Positions 122 to 17,640 of a stretch of 17,640 nucleotides of DNA are shown one piece after another. This DNA is from Deltaproteobacteria bacterium (GTDB lineage: Bacteria > Desulfobacterota > Desulfobacteria > C00003060 > C00003106): positions 1 through 17,640 of the forward strand of contig JAFDAE010000013.1 of the NCBI GenBank assembly GCA_019314005.1. Reading direction: 5' to 3'. A model generated the notes under the pieces. That model ran no database searches and was not told where the DNA came from. It saw only the letters and a list, made by a program, of their open reading frames with translations. Position 1 is the first letter of the stretch, and each line of letters starts with the position of its first letter. Position numbers and translations under genes: made by a program.

Positions 122-3100
122 TTATAAGTGGATACCACTTAGTATCTCCAGAGCGTCTTTGTTGTACGGGTCGTTCTGCAGTACTTTGTGGAGATAGGTT
201 CGGGCCTGTAATTCATCGCCCTGACGATGGTAAGAGAGCCCGAGTTTTAAATACGCTTCAACAAGGTCAGGGTTCTGCTCAATCGCGGCGCGGTACATCT
301 CGATAGCCTTCCGGTACTCGCCCTGCTCAAAATAAATATCGGCTAAATGTTGACGGACTTCGGCAGATTCGGGCGCAATCTTCAGGGCCATCTTAAGCGT
401 CCCTACTGCCCTGTCATACAGTTTCATTCGCTCATAACAGGTTGCCAGATTGTCCCAGACCAAAGGCTCATTTAGCCGTTTTCTTCGCAAAACACCCTGG
501 ATATGATCCGCAGCCAGGGCAAAGTTCTCCATATCTATCAAGGCAGAGGCCATGCCTATTTTAAATACGGCGTCAAAGGGAGAGATTGCAAGCGCATTTT
601 GAAAGTCCTCAATAGCGCTGCTGAGTAATTGCTGTTCATAATAAGCCTTCCCGCGATAATAATAGGCATGAGCCTTCAGAGGGTTGAGTTCCAAAACTCT
701 ATCAAATTCTTCCACGGCCTTTACGTAAAGTCCCTGGGAAAGGCAGACTTTGCCCAGCGACATATGGGTCGAGGGATTGTTGGGGTCCAGCTCTGCCGCC
801 AAAAAAAATCCCTTAAGCGCTTCTTTGACGAGCCCTTCCCGGGAATATTCGATCCCCTTTTTGTAATGAAAAACAGCGCGCTCCCGCCTTTCAGCCCCTG
901 ATAGGATTGATTCTGAATACTCCTCATGTTTTTCCCGGGCACGGTCCCTCCCCGCCGCAAGCCTATGATCATTCGGGGAAATTTGTAGTGCCTTTTCAAA
1001 ATCGATTAAGGCCTTATGGAACAAGTGCTGCTGGTAATAGGTCTTGCCGCGGTAATAATAGGCAGAAGCCTGCTTGGGATCAAGACCGATAGCGGTATTA
1101 AAGTCTCTTAGCGCCTTTAGGTAGGACCCTTCAGCAAGCTGAATTCTCCCTGTGTACACGTGAGCTTTAGGATCTTGTGGTTCAATGCTTGCTGCCCGCT
1201 CAAAATTCTTCAAAGCCTCTTGGATTAATCCTCTGTCGAAATAAGAGCGCCCTGTGTGATAATAAAAATCAAATGTTTGCAATTCCATCGATTCAACATT
1301 AGTCAAGGGAGGCAGCGAAGAGGTTTTATATCTTAAGATGCCCTGAAAGTTCTTATCCGCAGTATGCAAATACAGGTTCTTGGGCGCAGAAAACTCTAAA
1401 AGCGGCAGGTCGTCTGTATTTAACTCAGAAAGAATCGTAAATTTTTGAACATCCTCCTCCCCCAATAGAAAACAACCCAGTATCGAAAAAGGATGATCGA
1501 AGGAATATTTTTCGAAATCAGCCCTGATTTCAGGGAAGCTTGCCAGCCTTTCTGATATGACGCGATAATCTATTTTGATCTCATTGTTTTTCCCGATTAA
1601 AAGTATATCACTTTTAGAACTAAACCAGACCTGAGAGTGAGTAAAGATACTCCGGAAGGTATTGACAATCATTTTAAAATCATGTGGTAACATGGAATAG
1701 GTATGAACCCACTGAACCATGATGCCGTTCTGATTTAAACGGCTTTTGCATAGCTCATAGTGCTCTCTGGTAAAAAGGCTTGAAATGCCGGATATCCAGG
1801 GATTGGAGGGCTCAGAAACAATGATGTCATACCTCTTATTGGTGGCCAGGAGATGATTTCTACCATCTGCTGTGATCAGATTTAATTTCGGATTATCCAG
1901 CACGTTATGGTTGTACTCATTGAAATATCGGGCAGCATCGATTATTGCTGGCTCTATCTCAACGCAATCTATCTGGTTTAACGGATATTGGGATAGAGCC
2001 CCCGCAGTTACTCCGCTACCCAATCCAAGGACAAATGCGTTTTGCGGATCGGGATGGAGCAGGATCGGCAGATATCCCAACATAAGCTGATTGATCATAT
2101 CACCTTTCCCATTTGAGGCATCTGTCTTTCCATTAACCGCGAGGGAAATATGTGGAGTACGGTCCTGATGCGAATCAATGCTATCATGATAGCTTCCTGT
2201 TATATAAGGTATCTTCTCTTTTACATCCATAAGTGTTTCCATGACAGAAACTGTGCAATTTACGCCGTCTTTATAGTAAAGAACCTTCTTGTTCAGAAAT
2301 TGCCGGCCAAAGTCCTCCTTGCTCTTCACGTCGTAGCGGTTGGCATAGACAGCAACCCCGCTGGCCATAAGCCTTTTATCCCAGTGAGGCCCCCAAAAAA
2401 AGAGGCTCAAAGGAATAAGAACCAGACAACCATAACAGGCTCTTAGAGCTGCGCTCTTTTGGTCCGCAATAAGCAGAGTGATACCAATAAAGGTATTGAC
2501 CAAGATGGCCAACCACAGAGTTGCCTGGACCCCGAGCAAGGGGATCAAGACAAAGCCTGCCGCAAATGAACCGAGAATGCAGCCGACAGTATTTGCTCCA
2601 TACACCGTGCCGATGCTGCCGCCAAGGCTTGAGAGGCTTTTTGTATAGAGTTGACTCGCAATAGGGAATGCCGCTCCCATCAAGAGCGTGGGAATGAGCA
2701 TAACCGCAAAGCAAAGAATGAATTGTAAGGATATAATCAGGCCAAAACTGCAGCCAAACGTGGGATAAAGTCTCAGAAAATAGTACGGCAGCTCCCCCAA
2801 AACGGGTACTATGATCAATGCGGTAAAACCGATCGCAAGCTCTACGATTCCCAGCACGGTTAAACTAACGCTTCTTTTTCCCCACAACCGGGCAAACAAG
2901 AAACTCCCGAGAGCGATTCCCGCGAGAAAGGTGACCAGCATGGTACTGAAGGCATAAGTGGAGCTGCCGAGTACCAGGGCCAAAACACGCGTCCAGCCAA
3001 CCTCATACATCATGGAGGCAAGACCGGCGAGCCCAAATGCTACCAGAATCACGACCGAATGCCACCTTCCAGTCTCAATCAACGGCCTTTCGATCACGTC

Positions 3101-3790
3101 CGCCTTCTTTGGGGCACAATCTATCCTATGCACAGGAGCAGGAAGACGTGAGTCACTTGCTGAAAGCCTTGCCAGCAATAAGACCAACAATCCTATCCCC
3201 ATATTCATGACAGCGGTCATGTAGATAGTCAAATGTATCCCTATCAGGGTAGGCAGTACATAGCCTGCTAATATGACTCCCAGGACAGCGCCAAAGGTAT
3301 TTATAGCGTAAAGGTCCCCCACCCGTTTTCCCAACCGATGATAATTCTTGATAAAATACTTACTTAAAATCGGTAAGGTGGCACCCATAAAAGTAGTAGG
3401 AATAAGCAGAACTAACATGCACAAAAGAAAACGAAGTATACTGAAAGGATAAAAGGAGAGGCCTTGATACGCCTTAATATAAACGGTTTCAATCCCTTTA
3501 AAGATCAGGGGGGTAAAGAGACAGTAGACACCTATTCCGCCCTCCAAAAAGGCGTATAATCTTAAGAGCCCGGATGATTCGCGATGTTTAACATACTTGT
3601 CGGAATATTTACCGAAGAGGAAGCTCCCTATGGCCAGACCGCCCATAAAAGAAGCCAAAACAGTGCTTAAAGCCAAAACAGTGCTGCCAAACACCAGGCT
3701 CAACAGCCTTATCCAGGCTACCTCATAGACCAGGGCGCAGGTGCCGGAAAGGAAAAAGCAAGTTAGGATGGCAATGCCATACACGGTCAT
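122..3790 (-). CDS. Fused MFS-like membrane / spermidine-synthase-like / TPR protein
   Basis: 1222 residues. Two homologous membrane halves begin with related motifs (ALVYEVAWIRLLSLVFG at 19-35; MMYEVGWTRVLALVLG at 260-275) and span about 1-210 and 243-470. This is the 'fused MFS/spermidine synthase' architecture. A Rossmann methyltransferase-like domain follows, about 500-820, with GLGSG (589-593), CVEIEP (609-614), DGR (642-644) and SEPSNPW (659-665). The acidic catalytic segment of true spermidine synthases is replaced by SEPSNPW, so polyamine synthesis is doubtful. From about 840 to the end are roughly nine or ten TPRs, including a duplicated three-TPR block. ATG at 3790 has AAGGA upstream and lies 12 bp after the preceding stop. 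It is the last gene of the minus-strand cytochrome operon. A role in cytochrome maturation, export or assembly is a guess from context. Family call is confident; function is unknown. Confidence 0.88.
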   Translation of the reverse strand: MTVYGIAILTCFFLSGTCALVYEVAWIRLLSLVFGSTVLALSTVLASFMGGLAIGSFLFGKYSDKYVKHRESSGLLRLYAFLEGGIGVYCLFTPLIFKGIETVYIKAYQGLSFYPFSILRFLLCMLVLLIPTTFMGATLPILSKYFIKNYHRLGKRVGDLYAINTFGAVLGVILAGYVLPTLIGIHLTIYMTAVMNMGIGLLVLLLARLSASDSRLPAPVHRIDCAPKKADVIERPLIETGRWHSVVILVAFGLAGLASMMYEVGWTRVLALVLGSSTYAFSTMLVTFLAGIALGSFLFARLWGKRSVSLTVLGIVELAIGFTALIIVPVLGELPYYFLRLYPTFGCSFGLIISLQFILCFAVMLIPTLLMGAAFPIASQLYTKSLSSLGGSIGTVYGANTVGCILGSFAAGFVLIPLLGVQATLWLAILVNTFIGITLLIADQKSAALRACYGCLVLIPLSLFFWGPHWDKRLMASGVAVYANRYDVKSKEDFGRQFLNKKVLYYKDGVNCTVSVMETLMDVKEKIPYITGSYHDSIDSHQDRTPHISLAVNGKTDASNGKGDMINQLMLGYLPILLHPDPQNAFVLGLGSGVTAGALSQYPLNQIDCVEIEPAIIDAARYFNEYNHNVLDNPKLNLITADGRNHLLATNKRYDIIVSEPSNPWISGISSLFTREHYELCKSRLNQNGIMVQWVHTYSMLPHDFKMIVNTFRSIFTHSQVWFSSKSDILLIGKNNEIKIDYRVISERLASFPEIRADFEKYSFDHPFSILGCFLLGEEDVQKFTILSELNTDDLPLLEFSAPKNLYLHTADKNFQGILRYKTSSLPPLTNVESMELQTFDFYYHTGRSYFDRGLIQEALKNFERAASIEPQDPKAHVYTGRIQLAEGSYLKALRDFNTAIGLDPKQASAYYYRGKTYYQQHLFHKALIDFEKALQISPNDHRLAAGRDRAREKHEEYSESILSGAERRERAVFHYKKGIEYSREGLVKEALKGFFLAAELDPNNPSTHMSLGKVCLSQGLYVKAVEEFDRVLELNPLKAHAYYYRGKAYYEQQLLSSAIEDFQNALAISPFDAVFKIGMASALIDMENFALAADHIQGVLRRKRLNEPLVWDNLATCYERMKLYDRAVGTLKMALKIAPESAEVRQHLADIYFEQGEYRKAIEMYRAAIEQNPDLVEAYLKLGLSYHRQGDELQARTYLHKVLQNDPYNKDALEILSGIHL

Positions 3791-5852: not shown

Positions 5853-7967
5853 CTAAGGTTTATAGAGCTTCAGGTCGAGGTCATAGTCGGAAAATATCCA
5901 GTAACCCTTCCATGGCTCTAACTTGGCGGAATCCCATTGAATGGAGTCGTATGTACTGCCGTTCCATATGTAAACGGCATTTCCTATCCAGCCTGAAATC
6001 ACAGCATCCCCATAGGTTTGAGTAAAGGTGTAAATCACATCGCAAGAACTGAGGCTTACGCTTGTCCCATAAGGGTTCCCAATCAAATTCCAGCCGGCAC
6101 TTAAGGAAAGCGTGAACGAAGCATCGGTTATCTCAGTGCCTGAAGCATCGGTGGGGTCGTCGCTTTTGCATGAAAAAAGGAAAACGCCTTTTCCCGGAAC
6201 AATAGTTGCGGCTTTTTCCCAATAACCGGCAACGTCGGGATCACCTGCACCCGCCCAGGTAGAACACCAATGCCACATCCAGTTTATGCCGGCGTCGTCC
6301 CTGAATACCGAACCTGAATCATTGGGAACCGGCTGTAGAGGGCATGAAACCATATTCCAGTCAAAAAGGAGACCGGTCTTGCCAATGGGGCTAGTGGTAG
6401 AGAGGTCGGATGTGTTGATCTCATCCAAAGACTTTATGGCAAAATAGTATACGGTATTTGACTCCAATCCGGTAACTGTAAAATATTCTGTTGTTCCTTG
6501 CACAGAAGGGGTTGGCTCCCCTGTGGCCTGGCCGGCTGCCGAGAATTCAACGTCCGTGGTAATGGGTGTCTTGGCGTATCTGACATCATAGCTTGAGGCC
6601 TGTGTGCCGGGGTCGTTACCATCATCTCCAGGTGCCGTCCAGGTGAGTTCCACCGAATTTGAGCCCACTGTCCCTGTTGTTGCCAGATCGGTTATAGCGG
6701 CCGGCGGAGTAGGGTCAGATACCGGCATATCAGTTACTGTAATATCAGTGCCGGAGGCATAGTTGTCATAGGCGTATCTTTTAATTGCTGTATTATTATA
6801 GTCAGCCGCATATAAATACTGCTGTCCGGCGAAAGAGGTCGCGAAAATACCTAGGCTGACATTGTTAGAATTGAATTGATAATCACCTGTGCCTGAGCTC
6901 GGCCCCCCTACAGTCATCACCCAATTATTGTTGGAATCAAATTGCTGAATCCGGTGATTACCGCGGTCACTTACCCAGTAATAGCCGTTAGCATCAAACG
7001 ATATCTGATAGGGCCCGTTTCCGCTGTTGAATTCTCCGTCCCCTGTTCCTGAGGAGCTGAGGATTGTGGTAAAACTGGATCCGCCAGTAGTGGATTGATA
7101 TACCCTGGTAGCCCCCACATCTGCTACAAGGATAGTGTTGCTGTCTGAAGGATCAATGGCAATGCCTGCAAGAGTTACGGCAACTGGCACCTCGGTTCCG
7201 ATATTCCAACTGTCCCCTGAGTTGATAGATTTATAGATCTTGTCTGTACCCCGATCCACACCGTAGAGTATGGTTCCATCACTGTTACAAGCTATATCAT
7301 AGGGTTCCGAATAAGCCATCATCTTTCCATCCGGCCACCCCAGGAGATCAGAACTCCAGTTACTACCACCATCTATTGAATAGTAAAGCCTCTCGCTTCC
7401 GTTATCCAAGACATAGATCTTCTGCCCGTCATTACTTATGGCAATTCCATAAGCAGGGCCGCTGTACAACAACGCCTGAGACCAACTGGAGCCACCATCA
7501 GTCGATTTGTAAAGTCTGTCGGAGGCGGTCATCCAGAGGTTCTGACTGTTAGAAGGGTCAACAACCAGGTCATAGGGAGACTGCCCGGTAGAAGAGGCGC
7601 TGATATACGCTATATCATCGATATAATAAGGATAGGCGCCGTCCGGTACAATGTCACTCATGTCATCCCTGCCATCCCATACATCGGAATTGCTGCCGCT
7701 GGTTCTATTTTCAGTATAGTTATTGGCGGGGAAGACCAGTTTACGCTTCAGAACACCGGATGAATCATAGATCCTCAGCCAGAGTATGGCTGAGGTGTTC
7801 AGATCATATGAAATGGTAGTATTCTCTGTATCGGGATCGAAGGGGTTAGGGCTTGCTGATACATTGGAGACATTGGCTGCTTCCCCTTGTAAGGTCATGC
7901 CGAAGATAACAAAGAGGCAAATGAGAGCGCCTACTGTAACTTTATATGAATTACAATAATTTTTCAT
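5853..7967 (-). CDS. Secreted BNR/NHL beta-propeller and Fn3 protein with FlgD-like Ig domain
   Basis: 704 residues from ATG 7967, chosen because GGGGGAG lies just upstream and a signal peptide follows directly (cleavage near GEAA, residue 31). An upstream in-frame start at 8084 would overlap the preceding cytochrome and bury the signal. Residues about 33-120 resemble FlgD-type Ig domains (ASPNPFDPDTENTTISYDL, later VWDGRDD and DGAYPY). Then come four Asp-box motifs (155-162, 197-204, 247-254, 292-299; pattern SxDGGSxW, the last degenerate) and an NHL-like stretch (about 308-400). A fibronectin III domain follows (about 421-525), then a C-terminal region with WNMVSCPLQP and GWNLIGNPYG, seen in other exported proteins. 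There are no hemes. It lies directly after the OmcS-like gene in the operon. Likely a surface scaffold or partner; function unproven. Confidence 0.87.
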   Translation of the reverse strand: MKNYCNSYKVTVGALICLFVIFGMTLQGEAANVSNVSASPNPFDPDTENTTISYDLNTSAILWLRIYDSSGVLKRKLVFPANNYTENRTSGSNSDVWDGRDDMSDIVPDGAYPYYIDDIAYISASSTGQSPYDLVVDPSNSQNLWMTASDRLYKSTDGGSSWSQALLYSGPAYGIAISNDGQKIYVLDNGSERLYYSIDGGSNWSSDLLGWPDGKMMAYSEPYDIACNSDGTILYGVDRGTDKIYKSINSGDSWNIGTEVPVAVTLAGIAIDPSDSNTILVADVGATRVYQSTTGGSSFTTILSSSGTGDGEFNSGNGPYQISFDANGYYWVSDRGNHRIQQFDSNNNWVMTVGGPSSGTGDYQFNSNNVSLGIFATSFAGQQYLYAADYNNTAIKRYAYDNYASGTDITVTDMPVSDPTPPAAITDLATTGTVGSNSVELTWTAPGDDGNDPGTQASSYDVRYAKTPITTDVEFSAAGQATGEPTPSVQGTTEYFTVTGLESNTVYYFAIKSLDEINTSDLSTTSPIGKTGLLFDWNMVSCPLQPVPNDSGSVFRDDAGINWMWHWCSTWAGAGDPDVAGYWEKAATIVPGKGVFLFSCKSDDPTDASGTEITDASFTLSLSAGWNLIGNPYGTSVSLSSCDVIYTFTQTYGDAVISGWIGNAVYIWNGSTYDSIQWDSAKLEPWKGYWIFSDYDLDLKLYKP

Positions 7968-8023
7968 AGTCTCCCCCTTCTTCCTCATAATCATTTTTTC
8001 AAGCCACAAAAACCATTGCTTTG

Positions 8024-9040
8024 TTATTGCTTTGACGTATGGCATACTCCGCATCCGATAGAAAAATCGTTGAGAATATCCCACCGTATCATTTTAAAAT
8101 TAGGAGACCCGTGAACACGATGGCACGACAGGCACATAACTATATCGGTTCCGGGTCTCGCTTCACTGGTTACCCCTATGGCTGACAGGTCAGGTCTTGC
8201 CACAGGAGCGATCATACTGTAAGGAGCGGCCGCCCCGCCTCCGGGGCCGCCATTGTAATATTGATATTCGCCCATGGTGGGCAATACGATGTTTGTGGGA
8301 TGTCGCAGCCATGGACTTCCACTTCCTACACCGCTTGTACTATGAAAGTCTCCATGGCATTGAGAACACAAGGAACTTATGTTTGCGGTATCATCAAAGT
8401 CATTAGCCCCCTTATATTCATTATGGCTCGTATTGACATTGTCTTGTTCCCAGTCGTTATCTTCTGTGCCCGATATACCATTCAAGAACCTATAACTCAG
8501 CCCCACACCCGCAGCACCTCCGGGAGTCCCTTCTGAATCGTCCTTATGATGCGCGGTTCTAACTGCATCAAGTTGATCGGAGTTTCCCCTGTCACCGTGA
8601 CACCCGGATACTCCGGCGCAAGTAAGTTGAGACGACAGTGCGCTGCCCCCTGGAGGAATAAGCGCAAGGGTTTGATCCTGACCAACTATGCCCGCAACAT
8701 TGTGGCCTTGTGCGTTAGTTACCGTAACGTAAGAAAAATTGCCGCCGGCCAGAGGGTCGTCCGTGCCGAAATTGCCTCCTATATTCCAGACAATAGGAGT
8801 GCCCGTTGTGCTTATAGTAAATCCTTCCGCGCTGTGACAACCGACACAGGTAGTGTTAAGAAGAGAAGGATTGGCATCAGTGTAGCCTTCGAAGGCTTCA
8901 AAGGCCACAACTTGTTGCCCTCCCTGGCTGTTATGCATTGTATGGCAATGTGAGCACATGCCTGTGACCGCTGCCTGAATTGATCCGGAAAGTCCGAATG
9001 TAAGAAGGATGAAGAGCAAAAAAATCAATGATTTTTTCAT
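8024..9040 (-). CDS. OmcS-like hexaheme cytochrome (putative extracellular nanowire subunit)
   Basis: 338 residues with a signal peptide (cleavage near IQAA, residue 24). Heme motifs: CSHCH 29-33, CVGCH 65-69, CAGVSGCH (CX5CH) 141-148, CSQCH 225-229, CLSCH 303-307 and CGVCH 330-334. Six sites fall in the same order as in Geobacter OmcS and with matching landmarks: CHTMHNS after heme 1, GHNxxAG, PPGG before heme 3, RHP after heme 4, CLSCHRxH with a downstream MIRW, and a C-terminal CH near the end. OmcS is known to polymerise into heme-stacked filaments; that this protein does so is inference. Odd feature: the five-residue spacer in the third heme motif. It is the first gene of the minus-strand operon, with RBS AGGAAA and a long leader from a sigma-54-type promoter. 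It is paralogous to the cytochrome at 12139. Confidence 0.9.
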   Translation of the reverse strand: MKKSLIFLLFILLTFGLSGSIQAAVTGMCSHCHTMHNSQGGQQVVAFEAFEGYTDANPSLLNTTCVGCHSAEGFTISTTGTPIVWNIGGNFGTDDPLAGGNFSYVTVTNAQGHNVAGIVGQDQTLALIPPGGSALSSQLTCAGVSGCHGDRGNSDQLDAVRTAHHKDDSEGTPGGAAGVGLSYRFLNGISGTEDNDWEQDNVNTSHNEYKGANDFDDTANISSLCSQCHGDFHSTSGVGSGSPWLRHPTNIVLPTMGEYQYYNGGPGGGAAAPYSMIAPVARPDLSAIGVTSEARPGTDIVMCLSCHRVHGSPNFKMIRWDILNDFSIGCGVCHTSKQ

Positions 9041-9723: not shown

Positions 9724-10017
9724 ATGTTTTAAAAGTATGACATTTTTTGGGTCAGGCAAGCTTCTTTCGACAATCGGTACAAACTACGAGACCTTTGCAA
9801 AACGTGACATTTTTTGTCAGGCAAGGAAGGCGAAAATCTTAACCGCAGGAATACATTAGGTATTTTGAGGATAGCGCTGACGCTTCACTGCGTGCCAATA
9901 TTTGAAGCCTGACGCCGCATCACGAAAAAATGGCAGTTATGTAAAGGTTTCACTACGCCGCATAAGGGTGTGTTGAGAAGGTCAGCATTCAAGATAGCAG
10001 TTTTGTAAAGCTCTCAC
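9718..10017. mobile_element. Older, diverged MITE-like copy split by a later insertion
   Basis: The left part (about 9727-9760) contains TATGACATTTTTTGGGTCAG, close to the left end of the intact element at 9788. The right part (about 9995-10017, TAGCAGTTTTGTAAAGCTCTC) matches that element's right end (TGGCAGTTATGTAAAGGTTTC). The two parts flank the intact copy and its target duplication. The simplest reading is an old copy of about 130 bp that received a second copy. Outer limits are approximate. Confidence 0.45.
9783..9956. mobile_element. MITE-like element with 5-bp target-site duplication
   Basis: The 164-bp body (9788-9951) has imperfect terminal inverted repeats: GAGACCTTTGCAAAACGTG on the left; the right end reads GAAACCTTTACATAACTGC on the other strand. 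Both continue into a run CATTTTTT and, further in, TCAGGC. ACTAC occurs directly on both sides (9783-9787 and 9952-9956), as expected for a 5-bp target duplication. It encodes no protein, so a transposase elsewhere would have moved it. It ends about 80 bp before the dodecaheme cytochrome gene and could affect its expression. Confidence 0.75.
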
Positions 10018-10033
10018 AGTGGAGGGAAATGAA

Positions 10034-10807
10034 ATGGGCAAAAAGGCTGGTGTTTTAGTTTTATTAGTGACGCTTGTTATGTTCTGCGGGAATGTAAGGG
10101 CTGAAAAACTCTTAGACTCTGATTGTATTAAATGCCATAAGGTGCAACCGGCAACAATAGCTGATCAAGGGGGCAAACATAAAACAGAGGTAGATTGCGT
10201 GGATTGCCATACACAGCATCCGCCGGAGGGAAAAGAAGCCGTACCTGCATGCAGCGTCTGCCATAGCGGCAAGTCACATTATGATCTTGAAAATTGCGCG
10301 GCCTGTCATAGTGACACCCATGCGCCAATGACATTAAAGATTGAGGGCGATGTAACAGATCCCTGCCTTACATGTCACGAAGGAGAAGGGAAACAATTAA
10401 AAGACCATCCCAGCGCTCATACCGACTTGGCTTGTAACGAATGCCATACAGAGCACCGGTTGATTCCTGAGTGTATGGAATGCCATGAAAAGCATAGCGA
10501 GGACATGGATCTAAAATCCTGTCTAATCTGTCATCCGGTACACATGCCTCTTGTGATTACCTATGATCAGAATCTCCCCTCGAATTACTGTGCGGCATGC
10601 CACGGTGAAGCGGCTGCTTTGCTGAACAAAAATACGACCAAACACAAAGACCTTTCATGTGTCTACTGCCATCGTGTCCAACATAAGACGGTGCCGACCT
10701 GTGTTTCGTGCAAGATACCCCATGGTGAACCACATCCACCCAAGATGCTGGCAAAGTATCCTGAATGCGGTCAATGCCATGGTATAGCCCATGATATAAG
10801 AAAGTAA
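10034..10807 (+). CDS. Periplasmic dodecaheme c-type cytochrome (11 CxxCH plus CVSCK)
   Basis: 257 residues from ATG 10034, preferred over GTG 10019 because GGAGGG (10021-10026) lies at the right distance from the ATG. Signal peptide ends at VRA (residue 23). Heme motifs start at residues 31, 55, 73, 88, 111, 134, 147, 163, 186, 209, 223 and 245, forming three repeats of four (about 31-105, 111-180, 186-252). The eleventh is CVSCK, where the neighbouring paralogue has CSVCH. CxxCK binds heme in NrfA using a dedicated lyase; here it may bind an atypical heme or none. With no lipobox, the protein is probably soluble in the periplasm, passing electrons to the 12-heme lipoprotein encoded 19 bp downstream. 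This resembles the OmaB position in porin-cytochrome conduits by logic, not by proven homology. Confidence 0.92.
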   Translation: MGKKAGVLVLLVTLVMFCGNVRAEKLLDSDCIKCHKVQPATIADQGGKHKTEVDCVDCHTQHPPEGKEAVPACSVCHSGKSHYDLENCAACHSDTHAPMTLKIEGDVTDPCLTCHEGEGKQLKDHPSAHTDLACNECHTEHRLIPECMECHEKHSEDMDLKSCLICHPVHMPLVITYDQNLPSNYCAACHGEAAALLNKNTTKHKDLSCVYCHRVQHKTVPTCVSCKIPHGEPHPPKMLAKYPECGQCHGIAHDIRK

Positions 10808-10826: not shown

Positions 10827-11741
10827 ATGAAAAGTGCAAGAAAGGGAGCCATAGTTTTTAGTGCTGTAGTGATTGCAATGCTATTGCTTGTTGCTATGGG
10901 GTGTCAAAAAAGAATGGCAGCTCCAATGCTGGGAGAAGCCGAAGCGATTTCCGCCAAAGATATAAAAAAAGAAGCGACCAAAAAAATCTCCGATCTCTAT
11001 GATTTTGAAGCCGCGCCTCTTCGCACGGTAGCACAGTGTGCGCAATGCCACATTACCGTCTTTGACGATATTAAGAAACAGGGCGGGAAACATCAGATTG
11101 AATGCGTTCGCTGCCATACGCAGTTCCACATGTTCAACCCTAAAAAACGTCCTTATGAGACGGTCATTCCAAAGTGTGAAACTTGTCACGGGGTATTTCA
11201 CGGCAAGGGAACAAAAACGGTGCGCCTTACCAATTGTGCATCTTGTCATGCCGATCCGCATGCCCCTCTGATTATCCCGAGTTCAGAGATAGAGAATGCC
11301 TGTCGCTCATGTCACAAGAAAGAGGCAAACCAGATTAAAAAGAATGTCAGCATGCATACAACAGAGGTGGCTTGCGTGGATTGTCATGCCGACAAACATG
11401 GATTTATACCGGAATGTAACGCGTGTCACGAGTCACATAGCCCTGAGGTTGATATGAATTCTACGACCTGTATGGGGTGTCATCCGGTTCATATGCCCAC
11501 GAAAATTGCATATGGTGTGGAGACCTCTTCTACTATTTGCGCCGGATGCCATGACAAAGCCTATGATCTGCTTCAGAAGAACCGTACCAAACATACAGAC
11601 CTTGCATGCGCAAAATGCCACGACGCCCATGGGAAGATTCCAAAGTGCAGCGTTTGCCATGGTCAGCCTCATTCAAAGGCGCTGCTGAAGAACAAAAAGT
11701 GTTCAGATTGCCACGGCATAGCTCATAACCTGCCGAGTTAA
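10827..11741 (+). CDS. Dodecaheme c-type cytochrome, probable outer-membrane lipoprotein
   Basis: 304 residues. RBS GGAGGTG lies six bases before the ATG. The N-terminus is a lipoprotein-type signal (hydrophobic core VVIAMLLLVAMG, Cys26); the lipobox AMGC is slightly unusual. After a linker rich in Lys and Ala, twelve CxxCH motifs start at residues 71, 93, 117, 137, 159, 183, 197, 215, 238, 261, 274 and 292, arranged as three four-heme repeats like the preceding gene. The closing CSDCHGIAH matches CGQCHGIAH of the neighbour, so the two arose by duplication. Expected role: electron transfer at or across the outer membrane together with the neighbour and a barrel protein. The stop codon is a few bases before a riboswitch, so this gene ends the first block of the series. 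Confidence 0.92.
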   Translation: MKSARKGAIVFSAVVIAMLLLVAMGCQKRMAAPMLGEAEAISAKDIKKEATKKISDLYDFEAAPLRTVAQCAQCHITVFDDIKKQGGKHQIECVRCHTQFHMFNPKKRPYETVIPKCETCHGVFHGKGTKTVRLTNCASCHADPHAPLIIPSSEIENACRSCHKKEANQIKKNVSMHTTEVACVDCHADKHGFIPECNACHESHSPEVDMNSTTCMGCHPVHMPTKIAYGVETSSTICAGCHDKAYDLLQKNRTKHTDLACAKCHDAHGKIPKCSVCHGQPHSKALLKNKKCSDCHGIAHNLPS

Positions 11742-11746
11742 TAGGG

Positions 11747-11850
11747 CGGGTAACACGAGAAAGCCAAACTTGTCGTGAGGTAAGGGTGGAAAGTCACGGG
11801 TCTTTTGGACGTGTATGACACAGACAGCCGGACTGCCGAAGGGTAGTTCG
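11747..11850 (+). ncRNA. Cyclic di-GMP-I (GEMM-I) riboswitch
   Basis: The core matches GEMM-I. CCAAAC (11764-11769) leads into a helix 11769-11774/11779-11784 capped by the GNRA loop GTGA. Then GGAAAGTCACGGGTC (11788-11802) and ACAGCCGGACTGCCGAAG (11824-11841) follow. A second helix, GTCT/AGAC (11800-11803, 11822-11825), contains an inner GTGT/ACAC hairpin. The base aligned with Vc2 G20 is G11763 and the one aligned with A47 is A11790; a G at position 20 favours c-di-GMP over the cGAMP-type (A20) variants. Position 21/46 shows a covariant flip (C-G instead of G-C). P1 may be CGGGTAAC/GTAGTTCG (11747-11754, 11843-11850), with wobbles. It lies between the dodecaheme lipoprotein gene and the second OmcS-like gene, on the coding strand. 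Confidence 0.9.
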
Positions 11851-11863
11851 GCTGTCTTTTTTT
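11822..11863 (+). terminator. Intrinsic terminator forming the riboswitch expression platform
   Basis: AGACAGCCGGACTGCC (11822-11837) pairs along all 16 positions, with two G-U pairs, with 11842-11857 across a GAAG loop, followed by a run of seven T. The 5' arm is part of the riboswitch aptamer and the 3' arm overlaps its likely P1 strand. Ligand-bound aptamer and terminator are therefore mutually exclusive, which predicts that c-di-GMP allows readthrough (an ON switch). Confidence 0.88.
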
Positions 11864-11976
11864 GTTTTTAATTTGGTGTTTTCATATTGCATCCGTACTC
11901 TATTCAATGTATATTATTTTAAATTATATTTAATTATATATTATTTCAACCCACTAAAGCGTGTATAAAGCAATAC

Positions 11977-12030
11977 GAGACTTTTGCAATACGTGACATT
12001 TTTTGTCAGGCAAGGAAGGCGAAAATTTTA
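11977..12030. mobile_element. Truncated left end of the MITE-like element
   Basis: These 54 bases match 51 of 54 positions at the left end of the element at 9788, from GAGAC(C/T)TTTGCA to GGCGAAAAT. The match then stops abruptly and no convincing right end follows. It lies between the riboswitch terminator and the second OmcS-like gene, in the same orientation as the intact copy. Confidence 0.7.
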
Positions 12031-12138
12031 AGCAGAAGCTATTAACAGTGTGGGCCATGGTGGAATTCCCCCAGGTGTTAATAATGAGTCCTATCCATTT
12101 GAGATAATGTAAAAAAGACAGTGAGGAAGAGGTCATCT

Positions 12139-13257
12139 ATGAAGCAGCTAAAGATATTAGTAATCATAGTGGTTGGCGTGTCATTGTTGTTCATTTCTCA
12201 TGCGGTCCATGCCAAAGTAACAGGCTCTTGCGCAAACTGTCACACTATGCATAACTCACAGAACGGCACTGAAGTTGTTACCGACCCACAACCAGCTCTC
12301 ACCGTGAATAATTGCGTCGGGTGTCACTCTTCTACCGATTCCGATCCCACCTATGAGTTGGGTGATTCGACCGTCCCTGTCGTCTACAATACAAATGGTG
12401 CGAGCACCTATCTGGCAGGAGGTAATTTTTACTGGGTGGCCGCGGGAGATGATACCAAAGGACACAATATATTCTCTGATAACCCTGATGCCCTGAGCAC
12501 AGCCCCCGGGGGATCTTGGGGTACTGGTTGCGACACTAATTCCTGTCATAATAACCTTCACACAACTTACAATGATGGTCCCAACCCTGGTTTGGACGGT
12601 AGGCAGGGCTGCACCAAGTGTCACATGGTCGATGATCAGTATGGCCCTAGCGGTTTCCATCATGCAGATGACTCGAACATTGTAGTGGGCAGTGAACTGA
12701 ATGATCAAGACGGTTATTACCGCTTCCTCAAAGGACATCAGAGCGCGGACGACAGAGGCGTTTCAGGAATTGAGGATAACGACTGGCAATATACAAGAAG
12801 CTCTACCGACCACAATGAATATCTGGGAAAGCAGAATGCTCTAAAGTCCAAGGGAGGTCTGGGTAACTTAGACAACACTATGACAGGCTATTGCTGTGGC
12901 TGCCACGGCGACTTCCACGGGCAAAATGAGAAGGATGACGGATCAGGGAATTGGATCCGCCATCCCTCGGATGCGGTGATACCAAGCCAAGTCGAGTATG
13001 CCAATGCCTTTGGCGCAGCGGGCACCGGAGAAGGTACCTATAATCCACTTGTTCCGGTGGCTCGGCCCAGCCTGAGTGTCGTAAAGGGTACCGTGGCCCT
13101 GGGCACCGACCTGGTTATGTGCCTCTCATGCCACAGGCCCCACGGAAGCCCTTATTCCGATATGCTAAGGTGGGATTACGAAAACATGATCGCTGGAGGC
13201 GGAGGCGCTGATGGTACCGGCTGTTTTGTCTGTCATACAAATAAAGACGGTTCTTAA
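12139..13257 (+). CDS. OmcS-like heptaheme cytochrome (putative extracellular nanowire subunit)
   Basis: 372 residues from ATG 12139, which has AGAGG six bases upstream; GTG 12121 would add six residues before the signal. Signal cleavage near AVHA (residue 25). Heme motifs: CANCH 31-35, CVGCH 59-63, CDTNSCH (CX4CH) 131-137, CTKCH 158-162, CCGCH 252-256, CLSCH 328-332 and CFVCH 362-366. Six correspond in order to OmcS and to the divergent paralogue (8024-9040): CHTMHNSQ, KGHNI, APGG, EDNDW, DHNEY, WIRHPS, VPVARP and CLSCHRPHGSP are shared landmarks. CTKCH at 158 is extra. Export and heme stacking are expected; filament formation is inferred from OmcS. It lies downstream of the c-di-GMP riboswitch, about 270 bp after its terminator, so its transcription is probably c-di-GMP dependent unless a promoter lies in the gap. 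Confidence 0.9.
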   Translation: MKQLKILVIIVVGVSLLFISHAVHAKVTGSCANCHTMHNSQNGTEVVTDPQPALTVNNCVGCHSSTDSDPTYELGDSTVPVVYNTNGASTYLAGGNFYWVAAGDDTKGHNIFSDNPDALSTAPGGSWGTGCDTNSCHNNLHTTYNDGPNPGLDGRQGCTKCHMVDDQYGPSGFHHADDSNIVVGSELNDQDGYYRFLKGHQSADDRGVSGIEDNDWQYTRSSTDHNEYLGKQNALKSKGGLGNLDNTMTGYCCGCHGDFHGQNEKDDGSGNWIRHPSDAVIPSQVEYANAFGAAGTGEGTYNPLVPVARPSLSVVKGTVALGTDLVMCLSCHRPHGSPYSDMLRWDYENMIAGGGGADGTGCFVCHTNKDGS

Positions 13258-13428
13258 AGATATTAACTTCCAAGTTCCACACCTGCGATAATCTCTTGCT
13301 TTCATAGCAGCAGCTCTCTTAAGGCATACCTGCTCAATCCGATCATCACCCTACTCCCTTTAGTCTGGAAGATAATTGCAAGACCTTTGCAAATCACGTT
13401 AAGGATGCTCCAGATACGAACACTATAA

Positions 13429-13457
13429 TTGACAACAGCCTGAGATTATTGTATTAC
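13429..13457 (+). promoter_or_regulatory. Candidate sigma-70 promoter for the NHL/YVTN/barrel genes
   Basis: TTGACA (13429-13434) is a perfect -35, followed after 17 bases by TATTAC (13452-13457), a 4/6 match to the -10. The start would be near 13464, about 145 nt before the NHL gene. The 15-bp palindrome at 13447-13461 covers the -10. Confidence 0.5.
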
Positions 13458-13608: not shown

Positions 13609-14616
13609 ATGTATGAGAGAATGCCAAAAGATAAGCTATTGTCTCCAAGAAAGCCTATAGCGCTCATAACGCTGTTTCTGCTTGTCTTTGCCTTCCCAAC
13701 AGCAAAAGACTTACTCTTTGCGCAAGCCAAGGAAAAAGAAAAAATAGTTGTAGAACATATAATTCTTGAGGATTACGAAGGTAAACATTTATCTCACCCT
13801 TCTGGTTTGTTTCATGATTCGTTTAGGCGGGAGACGTATGTGGTTGACTCTGGAAATAACAGGATATTGATATACGCATACGATTTTTTCCATCTCTTAT
13901 CTATCGCCAAGACTGATGGTATTAACTACCCTGTAGCAGTGACGCTCGATTCAGAGGGGAACTTATTTATAACGCAGTCCAGCACAAAGAAATACCCACG
14001 GGGGAGATTGTCGGTACTTAATGCTAATCTTAGATGGGAGCGGGATATCCTTTTTGAAGATTTTGAGGGAGCGGACAAATTTACTCCCTATAATATCGTC
14101 TACCACAAAGACGGCTTTTTGTATGTAACGGGAAAGGACTATCCCGGAGTGGTAGTCTTAGACAAAAACGGCCATTTTTCGCGTCTCCTTACTCCCGTTG
14201 ATTCGTTTGCAGGTAAGACTAAGAAGGCTTTAATACGTGATGTGGAGATTGATGACTTTGGTAAGATATATCTGTTGAGCCAGGAAATGGGACGGATTTA
14301 CGTCTATGACACACAAGGCAACTTTTTGTTGAAATTTGGTAAAAAGGGTGGTGGGCCGGGGAAGTTCAGTCGTCCCAACGGCCTGGCCGTGGATAGCCAC
14401 AGGAAGCGTGTTTATGTTGTGGACTATATGCGACACACTATTTTGGTTTATTCCATGGAAGGAAAATTTTTGTTCGAATTCGGTGGCCTTGGTTGGGCAA
14501 AAGGATGGGTACAGTTCCCCAGCGATATATGTACGGACAGGGAAGGGAAAATACTCGTCGCAGATACATTTAATAACAGAGTCCAGGTCTTCAAAACAGT
14601 CCCTTTGAGACAGTAA
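13609..14616 (+). CDS. Exported NHL-repeat beta-propeller protein
   Basis: 335 residues. Residues about 17-38 (IALITLFLLVFAFPTA) are a signal peptide or anchor. The rest is about six NHL-type blades of roughly 45 residues, with recurring motifs such as YVVDSGNNRILIY, NLFITQSS, YVVDYMRHTILVY and VADTFNNRVQVF, and glycine-rich FGKKGGGPGKFSRPNGLAVD before blade five. No heme or catalytic motifs. ATG 13609 is the first start; no strong ribosome site is visible and ATG 13621 is an alternative. NHL proteins often lie next to multiheme cytochrome genes in Geobacter-type and syntrophic bacteria, where their role is not settled. Here it sits between the second OmcS-like gene and a YVTN lipoprotein. 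Likely a protein-interaction platform in the periplasm or at the surface. Confidence 0.88.
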   Translation: MYERMPKDKLLSPRKPIALITLFLLVFAFPTAKDLLFAQAKEKEKIVVEHIILEDYEGKHLSHPSGLFHDSFRRETYVVDSGNNRILIYAYDFFHLLSIAKTDGINYPVAVTLDSEGNLFITQSSTKKYPRGRLSVLNANLRWERDILFEDFEGADKFTPYNIVYHKDGFLYVTGKDYPGVVVLDKNGHFSRLLTPVDSFAGKTKKALIRDVEIDDFGKIYLLSQEMGRIYVYDTQGNFLLKFGKKGGGPGKFSRPNGLAVDSHRKRVYVVDYMRHTILVYSMEGKFLFEFGGLGWAKGWVQFPSDICTDREGKILVADTFNNRVQVFKTVPLRQ

Positions 14617-14638: not shown

Positions 14639-14736
14639 GGGCAGTTCTAATTCATGACAGGTTGCGAGTTTCGGGCCGGATGCAAGTTATTTCCGAATTG
14701 ACCAAGCATGAACGTATACGAGAGAGGACGCTTACT

Positions 14737-16155
14737 ATGAAAAAGTTGGCTCTACTGCTTGTTTTTGTATTTTGTATTTCATTGTTTGTCTCGTGTGTAC
14801 CTAAACCCGATTTAAAGAAATCCATATATTCTAATGCCGGCCAAGTTTTCGTTTATCTTTCTCCTTTTCAAGAACCCTCTTTAGACATTACTTTCACCCT
14901 CTCTGCAATGAGTTTCATGAACGAGGAAGGTATATGGTATGATGTTGCATTGGAACACCAGGTTATCAACTCAACAAAACTTGCAGGCACTCAGATAAAA
15001 CTAAAAGAATTCTATCTTCCGGCGGGGAAATATGAACGATTAAAGTGGGGAATCTCTGAGGCAACTTATAAACGCGGCAATAAAAAGTTTAGCCTTGCCC
15101 TTCCTGAGGCAGTTCACAATCAGACACTCGATGGCGAGTTGTCCGTAGACATTAAATTTGACGTTTTTTATCGAGAGAGCTTGTGTCTGTTTGTCGAGTG
15201 GGCTGCAGACCGATCCATCATAGATAACTATCTTTTTAAACCTCAACTCACCGTAAGACCGCAAGGATTAGAAATAAAGAATGTTTTAGCCTATGTTTCG
15301 AACGAGGCCTCTAATTGCGTTACAGTGATAGATAGACAGGAGAACTTGGTTGTAGGAACCATTGCTGTAGGAGAAGCGCCAAGAGGTATTATTGCAAGCG
15401 ACGACGGCACCAAAGTCTATGTGGCCAACTCTGGATCGAACAGTATTTCTGTGATTGATACATCGGCAAACAGAGTAATCAATACCATTGAAAATCGTGG
15501 ATATACCCCTGAGGAACTTGCATTGTCCGGGGACGATAATATCCTCTATGTGACCAATCCCTTTTCGAATAATGTATCGGTCATAGATGTTGTTTCCAAA
15601 GTGGTAATTGCTCGAATAGATGTTGGGAAAAAACCTACTGGAATTGTGGCAGATAAAGAACGGCGGAAGATCTATGTTGCAAACACAGATTCACTTAATA
15701 TCTCTGTGATTGATACGGACAGCCGAACGGTTGCGAGCTCTTTAACTGTTAGTTCAAACCCTCGCTTTTTGGCTCTCTGCAATGACCGGTTATACGTGGG
15801 TAATGAAAGGGTCAATGACATATATGCCATTGACCTCCCATCTTATTCCATCAAAACAATAAACGTCGGGTTCAGGCCCGAATGGTTGGTTTGTGGTTTG
15901 TCCAACAGGATTTATGCCGCAAATAGTAATTATAACGAAGTTTCCTTTGTACACACCACCTTAGACATGGTCACGCGGAGTATACCTGTGGGACATTACC
16001 CATCAGGAATGACTGTTGATACAATAAGAAGAAAGCTTTACGTGGCAAATCGTTTGTCAGGGAATGTGTCTGTCATAGACGTAATAACAGAAAAACTGAA
16101 AAAGACTATTCAGGTAGGTGAACAACCTCATAGGATAGCACTTATTGCGGAATAA
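14737..16155 (+). CDS. YVTN beta-propeller lipoprotein
   Basis: 472 residues from ATG 14737, chosen because AGAGAGG lies nine bases upstream and a lipoprotein signal follows at once (hydrophobic core, then LFVSC with Cys20). The earlier TTG 14662 would push the signal 25 residues inward. Residues about 30-175 form a beta-rich N-terminal domain I cannot name (FVYLSPFQEP, LPAGKYERLKWGI, LFVEWAADRS). From about 183 to the end are seven YVTN-family blades, each with Y(V/A)xN...VxVID and a xVGxxPxGI-type turn. No heme motifs. The gene follows the NHL gene by 120 bp. Two different propellers next to surface cytochromes suggest a binding or scaffold role on the outer membrane; the partner is unknown. 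Confidence 0.9.
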   Translation: MKKLALLLVFVFCISLFVSCVPKPDLKKSIYSNAGQVFVYLSPFQEPSLDITFTLSAMSFMNEEGIWYDVALEHQVINSTKLAGTQIKLKEFYLPAGKYERLKWGISEATYKRGNKKFSLALPEAVHNQTLDGELSVDIKFDVFYRESLCLFVEWAADRSIIDNYLFKPQLTVRPQGLEIKNVLAYVSNEASNCVTVIDRQENLVVGTIAVGEAPRGIIASDDGTKVYVANSGSNSISVIDTSANRVINTIENRGYTPEELALSGDDNILYVTNPFSNNVSVIDVVSKVVIARIDVGKKPTGIVADKERRKIYVANTDSLNISVIDTDSRTVASSLTVSSNPRFLALCNDRLYVGNERVNDIYAIDLPSYSIKTINVGFRPEWLVCGLSNRIYAANSNYNEVSFVHTTLDMVTRSIPVGHYPSGMTVDTIRRKLYVANRLSGNVSVIDVITEKLKKTIQVGEQPHRIALIAE

Positions 16156-16306: not shown

Positions 16307-17640
16307 ATGATTAAATGGTGGATTGTTACTCCCCTATTAGTTTTGATTTTGTTTCAAAGCGCTTATGCCGATGATATAAGTGGTTCTGCTCAGATTTATT
16401 GGCAAACAACCTCAACTGAGGAGGAACATGAAAAGGAAAAGTCGTGGTATCTTAGTCAGACGTATAATCTTGGTTTAAGTAAGGATGTTACGCCCAACAT
16501 CTCTTTTAGTGGAGACTTAGGCATCAATACCACTGAAAGCGACGATACCAAGACGACCCGTATGTATCCCTCATTCCGTCTTAACTTGACAAATGAGTAT
16601 TTTGACGCAAATGGGGGTTATCAATTATATGAACGCGGACTCGAAATTTTTGGAATGCCCTCGGATGAAACCCGTCGTACCAACGAGACCTGGAATACCA
16701 ACTTATCTACAAAATCTACAAGTTACCCAAGGCTTCGATTTCGTTATGACAAAAACAGGCTCTACGATCATCTATCTATTCACGAAACAGATACCCGTTC
16801 TGAGCGTTATGAGGCAACAGCTGATTATACCTATCAATTTTTAAATTTCGCAGTAAAGCATTATAAAAATGTTAGTGACAATTTCGTGGCTGATAGTACG
16901 CAAACTACCACAAACGATGAAGGGAGAGTAGAATTCAGACAATCTTTTTGGGACAACAGGTTCAGTAGTTCCGGATCTTACAGATGGACTGAACAAGAAA
17001 CAGAAAGCATGACCCGAAGACAGGATGTTCGGGTTAGCATCGAAAGAGACAGAAAGGTAGGGCTGTATGATAGGGATACCACGCCTACCGCAGACCTGCT
17101 GACAGACACTCCACTCCTCATAGATGACAATATATCGACGAGCGCTGGAATAAACATCGGATCTAATGGCAACGATTACCAGAACATCGGCGCGGAATTG
17201 ACAAGTCCCGAGGAAATTGAAGAGATATGGATTTACACGGATGTTGAGTACACTGATAATACCAACAATCCTGTTCGATGGGATGTCTATTCGTCCGGCG
17301 ATGGTACAATTTGGACTTCCATAGCAACAAATGCAACTTCCGAATACGTCCTGTCCGAGAAACGATTTGAAATATCCTTTCCCCAAACTACAGCGAGTTT
17401 TTTTAAAGTAGTCAATACTACTCAGGCCAGTGTTGTTAATCTTGATGTTACAGAAATCAGATTGTTCGGTTATACAACTCAGGCAGCCCACACCACTGAC
17501 ACGACCACAGTAACCAGAGAAAATATTATTTTTAATGCCGGACTGCGGCCGGTAGATTGGGGAGTTATTCAATACGATTTCACGCAAGACGAATCCGAAA
17601 CCGATCCTGATTCAAGCAAAACGAGACGATATACCCATAC
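16307..17640 (+). CDS. Probable outer-membrane beta-barrel protein with F5/8C-like insert (partial)
   Basis: The frame is open from ATG 16307 to the window edge (444 codons, no stop). Residues 1-21 are a signal peptide (WWIVTPLLVLILFQSAYA, cleavage before DD). Residues about 22-265 show short alternating polar/aromatic strands and charged turns (such as RLRFRYDKNRLYDHLSI and ATADYTYQFLNFAV), typical of outer-membrane barrels. Residues about 275-388 resemble a discoidin/F5/8C sandwich (RWDVYSSGDGTIWTSI, RFEISFPQTTASFFKVVNTT). Barrel-like strands resume after it. No heme motif appears in the visible part. The ribosome site is weak (AAAGG, 17 bases upstream); an 11-codon frame from ATG 16274 ends in ATGA overlapping this start and might couple translation. 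As the only barrel candidate here it could be the porin of the conduit. Family not confirmed. Confidence 0.78.
   Translation, partial: MIKWWIVTPLLVLILFQSAYADDISGSAQIYWQTTSTEEEHEKEKSWYLSQTYNLGLSKDVTPNISFSGDLGINTTESDDTKTTRMYPSFRLNLTNEYFDANGGYQLYERGLEIFGMPSDETRRTNETWNTNLSTKSTSYPRLRFRYDKNRLYDHLSIHETDTRSERYEATADYTYQFLNFAVKHYKNVSDNFVADSTQTTTNDEGRVEFRQSFWDNRFSSSGSYRWTEQETESMTRRQDVRVSIERDRKVGLYDRDTTPTADLLTDTPLLIDDNISTSAGINIGSNGNDYQNIGAELTSPEEIEEIWIYTDVEYTDNTNNPVRWDVYSSGDGTIWTSIATNATSEYVLSEKRFEISFPQTTASFFKVVNTTQASVVNLDVTEIRLFGYTTQAAHTTDTTTVTRENIIFNAGLRPVDWGVIQYDFTQDESETDPDSSKTRRYTH

Follow-up and report, generated by a model that had tools for sequence, protein, structure and literature searches.

GEMM-I riboswitches ahead of Geobacter electron-transfer genes, the OmcST operon included, are already known (PMC6456294; PMC8683041), and the one in the Geobacter sulfurreducens OmcST operon is reported to respond to both cGAMP and c-di-GMP (Kellenberger 2015, cited in PMC6456294). 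The pilM riboswitch of Geobacter metallireducens is a GEMM-I ON-switch in which aptamer and terminator are mutually exclusive, the terminator taking up the C with which the ligand pairs (PMC9262584). The oetABI cluster of ANME-partner sulfate reducers, which encodes OetA, the lipoprotein OetB, the porin OetI and OmcS-like extracellular cytochromes, has been proposed to act in interspecies electron transfer (DIET; PMC10553843). The main text of that paper mentions no riboswitch, c-di-GMP or second messenger in connection with oet clusters; among the matches listed in a literature search, none describes a riboswitch within an oet cluster or one that separates conduit from wire genes, and searches for riboswitches inside operons gave a paper on CRISPR control and, ranked first in a broader search, one on internal transcription starts.

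The DNA analysed here (the window, 17,640 nucleotides; Table 1) resembles each of these systems in part. As in the OmcST operon, a GEMM-I aptamer precedes an OmcS-type cytochrome gene (PMC6456294); as in pilM, the aptamer and a terminator exclude each other. Unlike pilM, which senses cGAMP and serves pilus genes, the window aptamer has G at position 20 and lies between cytochrome genes, with a putative wire cytochrome downstream (PMC9262584). The switch type is well known, and the interest lies in its location within the gene cluster, between conduit and wire genes; new here are a GEMM-I aptamer in an oetABI-like cluster, its recurrence before OmcS-like genes and the case of a related locus, L163, described below.

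Table 1. Features of the window discussed in the text, in order of position
Feature	Position	Strand	Remarks
OmcS-like gene, first of two in the window	8024-9040	-	divergent
11-heme cytochrome, OetA-like	10019-10807	+	11 CXXCH; Cytochrom_c3_2/Cytochrome_C7
Dodecaheme lipoprotein, OetB-like	10827-11741	+	12 CXXCH; lipobox-like LVAMGC in the translation
GEMM-I (c-di-GMP-I clan, CL00126) aptamer	11754-11841	+	RF03167, 67.9 bits; 21/21 pairs standard
Intrinsic terminator stem-loop	11822-11857	+	16 pairs, 9 of them G-C, then six T
MITE-like repeat fragment, 58 nt	11974-12031	+	in the wire-gene leader
OmcS-like multiheme cytochrome, putative nanowire subunit	12139-13257	+	372 aa; 6 CXXCH and one wider-spaced motif; likely ATG at 12139
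Promoter-like site before the NHL gene	13429-13457	+	TTGACA-N17-TATTAC
NHL-repeat protein	13609-14616	+	PF01436, E 1.7e-17
YncE-like beta-propeller protein	14662-16155	+	PF21783, E 2.9e-14
ORF truncated by the window end, candidate OetI-like porin	16307-17638	+	by position and analogy

The genes of the plus strand follow one another as 11-heme cytochrome, dodecaheme lipoprotein, riboswitch, OmcS-like gene, NHL-repeat protein, YncE-like propeller and putative porin, an order that resembles the published oetABI cluster. Two multiheme cytochromes, one of them with a lipobox, are clear; the third part is the candidate porin, which has no NCBIfam match and has a homologue in each of the 12 relative genomes searched (68% identical in G208, 53% in G024). 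The OetA label is given to the 11-heme cytochrome by analogy with that cluster (PMC10553843); of 40 mapped relative loci, 38 have its homologue next to the dodecaheme gene. Homologues of the dodecaheme protein are 85% identical in G208 and 68% in G024, two genomes within the four-genome family of G208. Locus L025 of G024 is MAXM01000079.1, from Desulfobacterales bacterium C00003106, and in PMC10553843 MAXM and the strain name C00003106 appear against two strains belonging to a single Seep-SRB1g species; the window organism may be a sulfate reducer of the ANME-partner type.

The name OmcS-like, proposed in the earlier note, depends on the method of comparison. A profile of 20 sequences matches OmcS (6ef8) with E 3.8e-18 in two stretches and upholds the kinship, whereas single-sequence searches of PDB with three cytochromes, among them a phmmer search with this protein, returned nothing. 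The protein has 3068 homologues at E <= 0.001; its AlphaFold model, built without haems, has a pLDDT of 40, too low for use in fold comparison. Two minus-strand ORFs elsewhere in the window deserve mention. One of 743 aa (5853-8084) overlaps the divergent OmcS-like ORF only through a far-upstream GTG; its L163 homologue starts at MKNY, and the same start in the window would remove the overlap. The other (122-3790) encodes a protein of 1222 aa beside the cytochrome genes, in which numerous TPR repeats accompany an MFS-like stretch and a spermidine-synthase-like domain.

The aptamer begins 12 nt past the dodecaheme stop. It gives the only Rfam match above the gathering score in the whole window, full length, with E 1.8e-14 and a score above the RF03167 (c-di-GMP-I-GGC) cut-off of 59; the match was recovered when the sub-region was scanned, and a chance match is ruled out by its E-value. 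The earlier note had read a complete GEMM-I aptamer with a GNRA loop, located inside the cytochrome series and not at the operon head, and all of this is borne out, as are its coordinates: the consensus pairs span P1, P2 and P3, the P2 loop is GUGA (11775-11778, read in the sequence), and the element lies between the dodecaheme stop and the OmcS-like gene. RF01051, the model named in that note, is in part displaced: the clan is as expected, and, with one best match reported per clan, the score obtained is that of RF03167 and not of RF01051. The observation of a signal-sensing RNA switch between the conduit genes and the OmcS-like gene is thereby confirmed.

Related aptamers were aligned (A2: 29 of 30 RF03167 loci plus the window, the 54-nt match of L103 being left out). 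Among the 29 distinct sequences, two-sided changes occur in 17 of 21 pairs, a number reached in none of 500 shuffles; all rows but that of the window had been retrieved with RF03167, so the covariation favours the family fold. One inner P2 pair is C-G in the window and G-C in 20 of the 29 rows.

The pocket letters of the window, in the usual Vc2 numbering, are G20 (11763), A47 (11790) and C92 (11836), in agreement with the c-di-GMP type first proposed. The name GGC presumably denotes these three positions, yet the consensus G at position 47 is absent: all 30 rows of A2, the window included, have A, and the RF03167 label is therefore not taken to signify a different ligand. A search of the literature on this family gave nothing by accession and, by name, excerpts in which the ligand is not defined. 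Position 20 is G in 27 rows of A2 and A, C or U in one each; it is G in the window and in the 13 rows of alignment A5 that were taken as true aptamers, the remaining two of its 15 rows, the L163 remnant and a low-scoring match on the reverse strand of L062 (13.2 bits), being left out of the count. The A at position 20 that marks cGAMP-type GEMM-Ib aptamers is thus absent from the window, and cGAMP as the sole ligand was rejected; dual sensing is still compatible with G. In PMC6456294, an A20G change in Gmet_0970 switched preference from cGAMP to c-di-GMP. On the evidence of these letters c-di-GMP is the favoured ligand, possibly shared with cGAMP. That the aptamer responds to cGAMP, or equally to both, and not to c-di-GMP alone is a minority reading that we hold to be rather unlikely: GEMM-Ib riboswitches ahead of Geobacter cytochrome genes sense cGAMP, and that of OmcST reportedly senses both (PMC6456294), a possibility that the earlier note left aside, but the recurrent G20 and the Gmet_0970 result argue for a c-di-GMP choice. 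Pocket letters alone are weak evidence, because the same three align in the decayed L163 copy. Three relatives have another base at position 20, namely A in L097 (1501-1588), C in L099 (1311-1401) and U in L100 (1501-1590), the last overlapping a second, same-strand match by 2 nt in tandem; the C and U variants may bind other ligands.

Of 25 terminator-like sites detected in the window, against 15.7 expected from shuffled sequence, the terminator ranks first. Its 5' arm consists of the 3' strands of aptamer P3 and P1, and 11 of the 21 aptamer pairs, together with C92, use bases of this arm; the terminator thus overlaps and excludes the aptamer, the hallmark of a transcriptional ON-switch. Both the 16-bp terminator and the ON-switch logic put forward in the earlier note are sustained, the design being that of pilM (PMC9262584). 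In a growing transcript without ligand, the terminator fold is predicted, with a mean probability of 1.00 for ten of its 16 pairs once position 11857 is reached; the folding energy of the 129-nt region is -50.9 kcal/mol (z -5.0, none of 200 shuffles as low), and its 102-nt part lacking the terminator 3' arm folds unremarkably (z -0.38). The native aptamer fold is not favoured ligand-free: in the 88-nt window aptamer the native helices are nearly absent (P2 0.01, P3 0.08), a value among the lowest of the 30 rows and equalled by L094 and L101, because CACGA at the 5' end can pair with UCGUG in P2. This alternative hairpin (11754-11778) beats the native fold in the ligand-free prediction, in programs that disregard the ligand and tertiary contacts.

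We consider it probable that the element is a transcriptional GEMM-I ON-switch that acts as a gate where the conduit unit ends. Having passed through the OetA- and OetB-like genes, RNA polymerase would transcribe the aptamer. When the ligand is absent, the 3' strands of the aptamer would pair with the sequence after them to form the 16-bp hairpin, stopping transcription at about 11860, so that the hairpin is proposed to be the usual 3' end of the conduit message. Bound c-di-GMP, and possibly cGAMP too, would keep these strands and C92 within the aptamer, the hairpin would be blocked, and transcription would continue into the OmcS-like gene, whose product may form the wire.

Recurrence in relatives supports a link between GEMM-I aptamers and OmcS-like genes, as had been suggested. 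The model R1, built from 30 aptamers with the window among them, found four aptamers at 75 OmcS-like loci, three of them on the strand of an OmcS-like gene and no more than 400 nt ahead of it (L008, L028, L062), where 0.010 would be expected by chance from the RF03167 background rate (91 matches in 50 genomes, 135 Mb; P ~2e-7, or ~7e-5 at the densest single-genome rate), the 400-nt limit having been fixed after the hits were known. When neighbouring contigs are included, ten GEMM-I copies in six genomes precede an OmcS-like gene: the window, four in G026, two in G008 and one each in G202, G005 and G004. Eight of the ten, the window included, are preceded at a distance of 12 to 984 nt by a same-strand gene for a multiheme cytochrome; of the remaining two, one stands at the head of its series and one lies too close to a contig end for its upstream neighbour to be seen. 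In G005 and at C271 of G008 about 700 nt separate the aptamer from the following OmcS-like ORF, and that of C271 is only 25% identical and does not reach E 1e-20. G202 comes nearest to the window: there the dodecaheme stop is followed by 63 nt, an aptamer (52.6 bits with R1; a weak 35.2 with RF01051, cut-off 35) and two OmcS-like genes. In the window, L179, L028, L173, L172 and L008 the aptamer runs into an overlapping terminator; at L062 none follows directly. The 2.2-Mb genome G026 has 11 GEMM-I matches, of which four precede genes for OmcS-like cytochromes; L028, L232 and L233 supplied its aptamer sequences, and its dodecaheme locus, L126, lies outside the set of 40 dodecaheme loci scanned with R1.

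Among those 40 loci, counted besides the window, R1 scored only L172, L173, L179 and the L163 relic, with at least 1 kb of downstream sequence in 34 of the 40 and less in six. Six of the 40 have an OmcS-like ORF within 4 kb downstream on the same strand, and intact R1 aptamers occur in three of these six versus none of the 34 others, kinship not being allowed for; the other three (L175, L186, L187) have no R1 match. Most relatives lack the aptamer-wire arrangement, with an aptamer close upstream at only 3 of the 75 OmcS-like loci, and this counts against the proposed gate. For comparison with the OmcST operon, nine loci around oet-like clusters in five genomes of the family of G020 were scanned and gave no Rfam match, both sides of the cluster being covered in four genomes and only the upstream side in one.

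A probable natural loss bears on the question. Locus L163 of G208, whose dodecaheme protein is 82-85% identical, keeps the gene order of the window except for the wire gene: the dodecaheme gene is followed by 294 nt and then the NHL gene, and the OmcS-like gene is absent there. At the same place after the stop lies a remnant aptamer, scoring 14.8 bits with R1 vs 74.5 for the window and sharing with it the segments AAAGCCAA and TCGTGAG. It keeps outer P2 (6/6 pairs) and most of P3 (7/10), has lost inner P2 (0/2), P1 (0/3) and one of three conserved A's, and contains an insertion; the terminator is intact, and the segment folds at -30 kcal/mol. Elsewhere in G208, whose assembly is possibly incomplete, there are OmcS-like proteins with 41% and 36% identity, the former encoded by the divergent gene of this cluster. 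The simplest reading is that the aptamer decayed together with the loss of the wire gene, though it could instead be an unfinished gain, never completed. G024 has a plain terminator at the aptamer's place, and its genome has no RF01051 match. The apparent joint loss in L163 and the recurrence in five relative genomes agree with the initial link of aptamer and wire gene, and L163 suggests that the aptamer is retained only alongside its wire gene.

These same loci raise the prospect that the window aptamer is itself decaying and that its hairpin is now a constitutive terminator. Its poor ligand-free native fold, the decayed copy in L163 and the plain terminator in G024 would fit such a course, which we nonetheless regard as most improbable: all 21 pairs and the pocket letters are kept, including an inner P2 pair in an orientation opposite to that of most rows, the RF03167 score is 67.9 bits and the wire ORF is intact.

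The importance of the gate for the wire gene depends on what lies in the leader between terminator and start codon (11870-12138), which is long, AT-rich and contains a fragment of a mobile element. A strong separate promoter here had been named as what would make the wire gene independent of the switch. At the default threshold no plus-strand sigma70-like site was found in this interval; a relaxed scan gave several weak sites matching 8-9 of 12 positions, such as TTTAAA-15-TATTAT at 11918 and TTGCAT-17-TATATT at 11887. A sigma54 scan was at chance level (25 sites vs 23 expected). The AT-rich leader could hide a promoter, and the aptamer might then be functional while the wire gene is transcribed mainly from its own start; the riboswitch would in that case only define where the conduit message ends, or contribute a minor share. 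The length and composition of the leader and the relaxed-scan sites speak for this arrangement, as does a repeat common to the wire-gene and conduit leaders, but the repeat is a dispersed element, no site passes the default threshold, and in L163 the wire gene is missing and the aptamer decayed together; we judge it rather unlikely.

The repeat itself was considered as a dedicated shared promoter and rejected. Its 58 nt in the wire-gene leader are 95% identical to 9785-9842 in the conduit leader, and copies in the window lie at 9785-9957, at 11974-12031 and, in part, at 13374-13393. The full element, some 140-175 nt long and bounded by imperfect terminal inverted repeats, is most plausibly a MITE. 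Copies related to it are present in 14 of 50 relative genomes, with as many as 18 scored in G025, and the longer copy at the head of the conduit genes is missing in L163, which has an empty site. A 21-nt core of the repeat, sought in viral contigs, was not found there.

Downstream, the promoter-like site before the NHL gene recurs in relatives as TTGACA-N17-TATTAA in L163 and TTGACA-N17-TATATA in L117 (spacing by eye), and G202 has no TTGACA in the 800 nt spanning the start of its NHL homologue; the site is kept in three of four genomes examined. The site suggests that the NHL, propeller and porin genes are independent of the riboswitch in the window and its nearest kin, and hence that the gate may act on the wire gene alone.

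For the biology of these organisms a wider reading can be given, though we stop just short of favouring it. The conduit terminator of relatives of ANME-partner sulfate reducers may have become a second-messenger gate: the conduit would be made at a basal level and wires only at high c-di-GMP, aptamer and wire gene would be kept or lost together, and c-di-GMP would be a control point of DIET. If the proposed gate is real, one RNA element would directly link second-messenger signalling to wire synthesis, in a form that can be tested.
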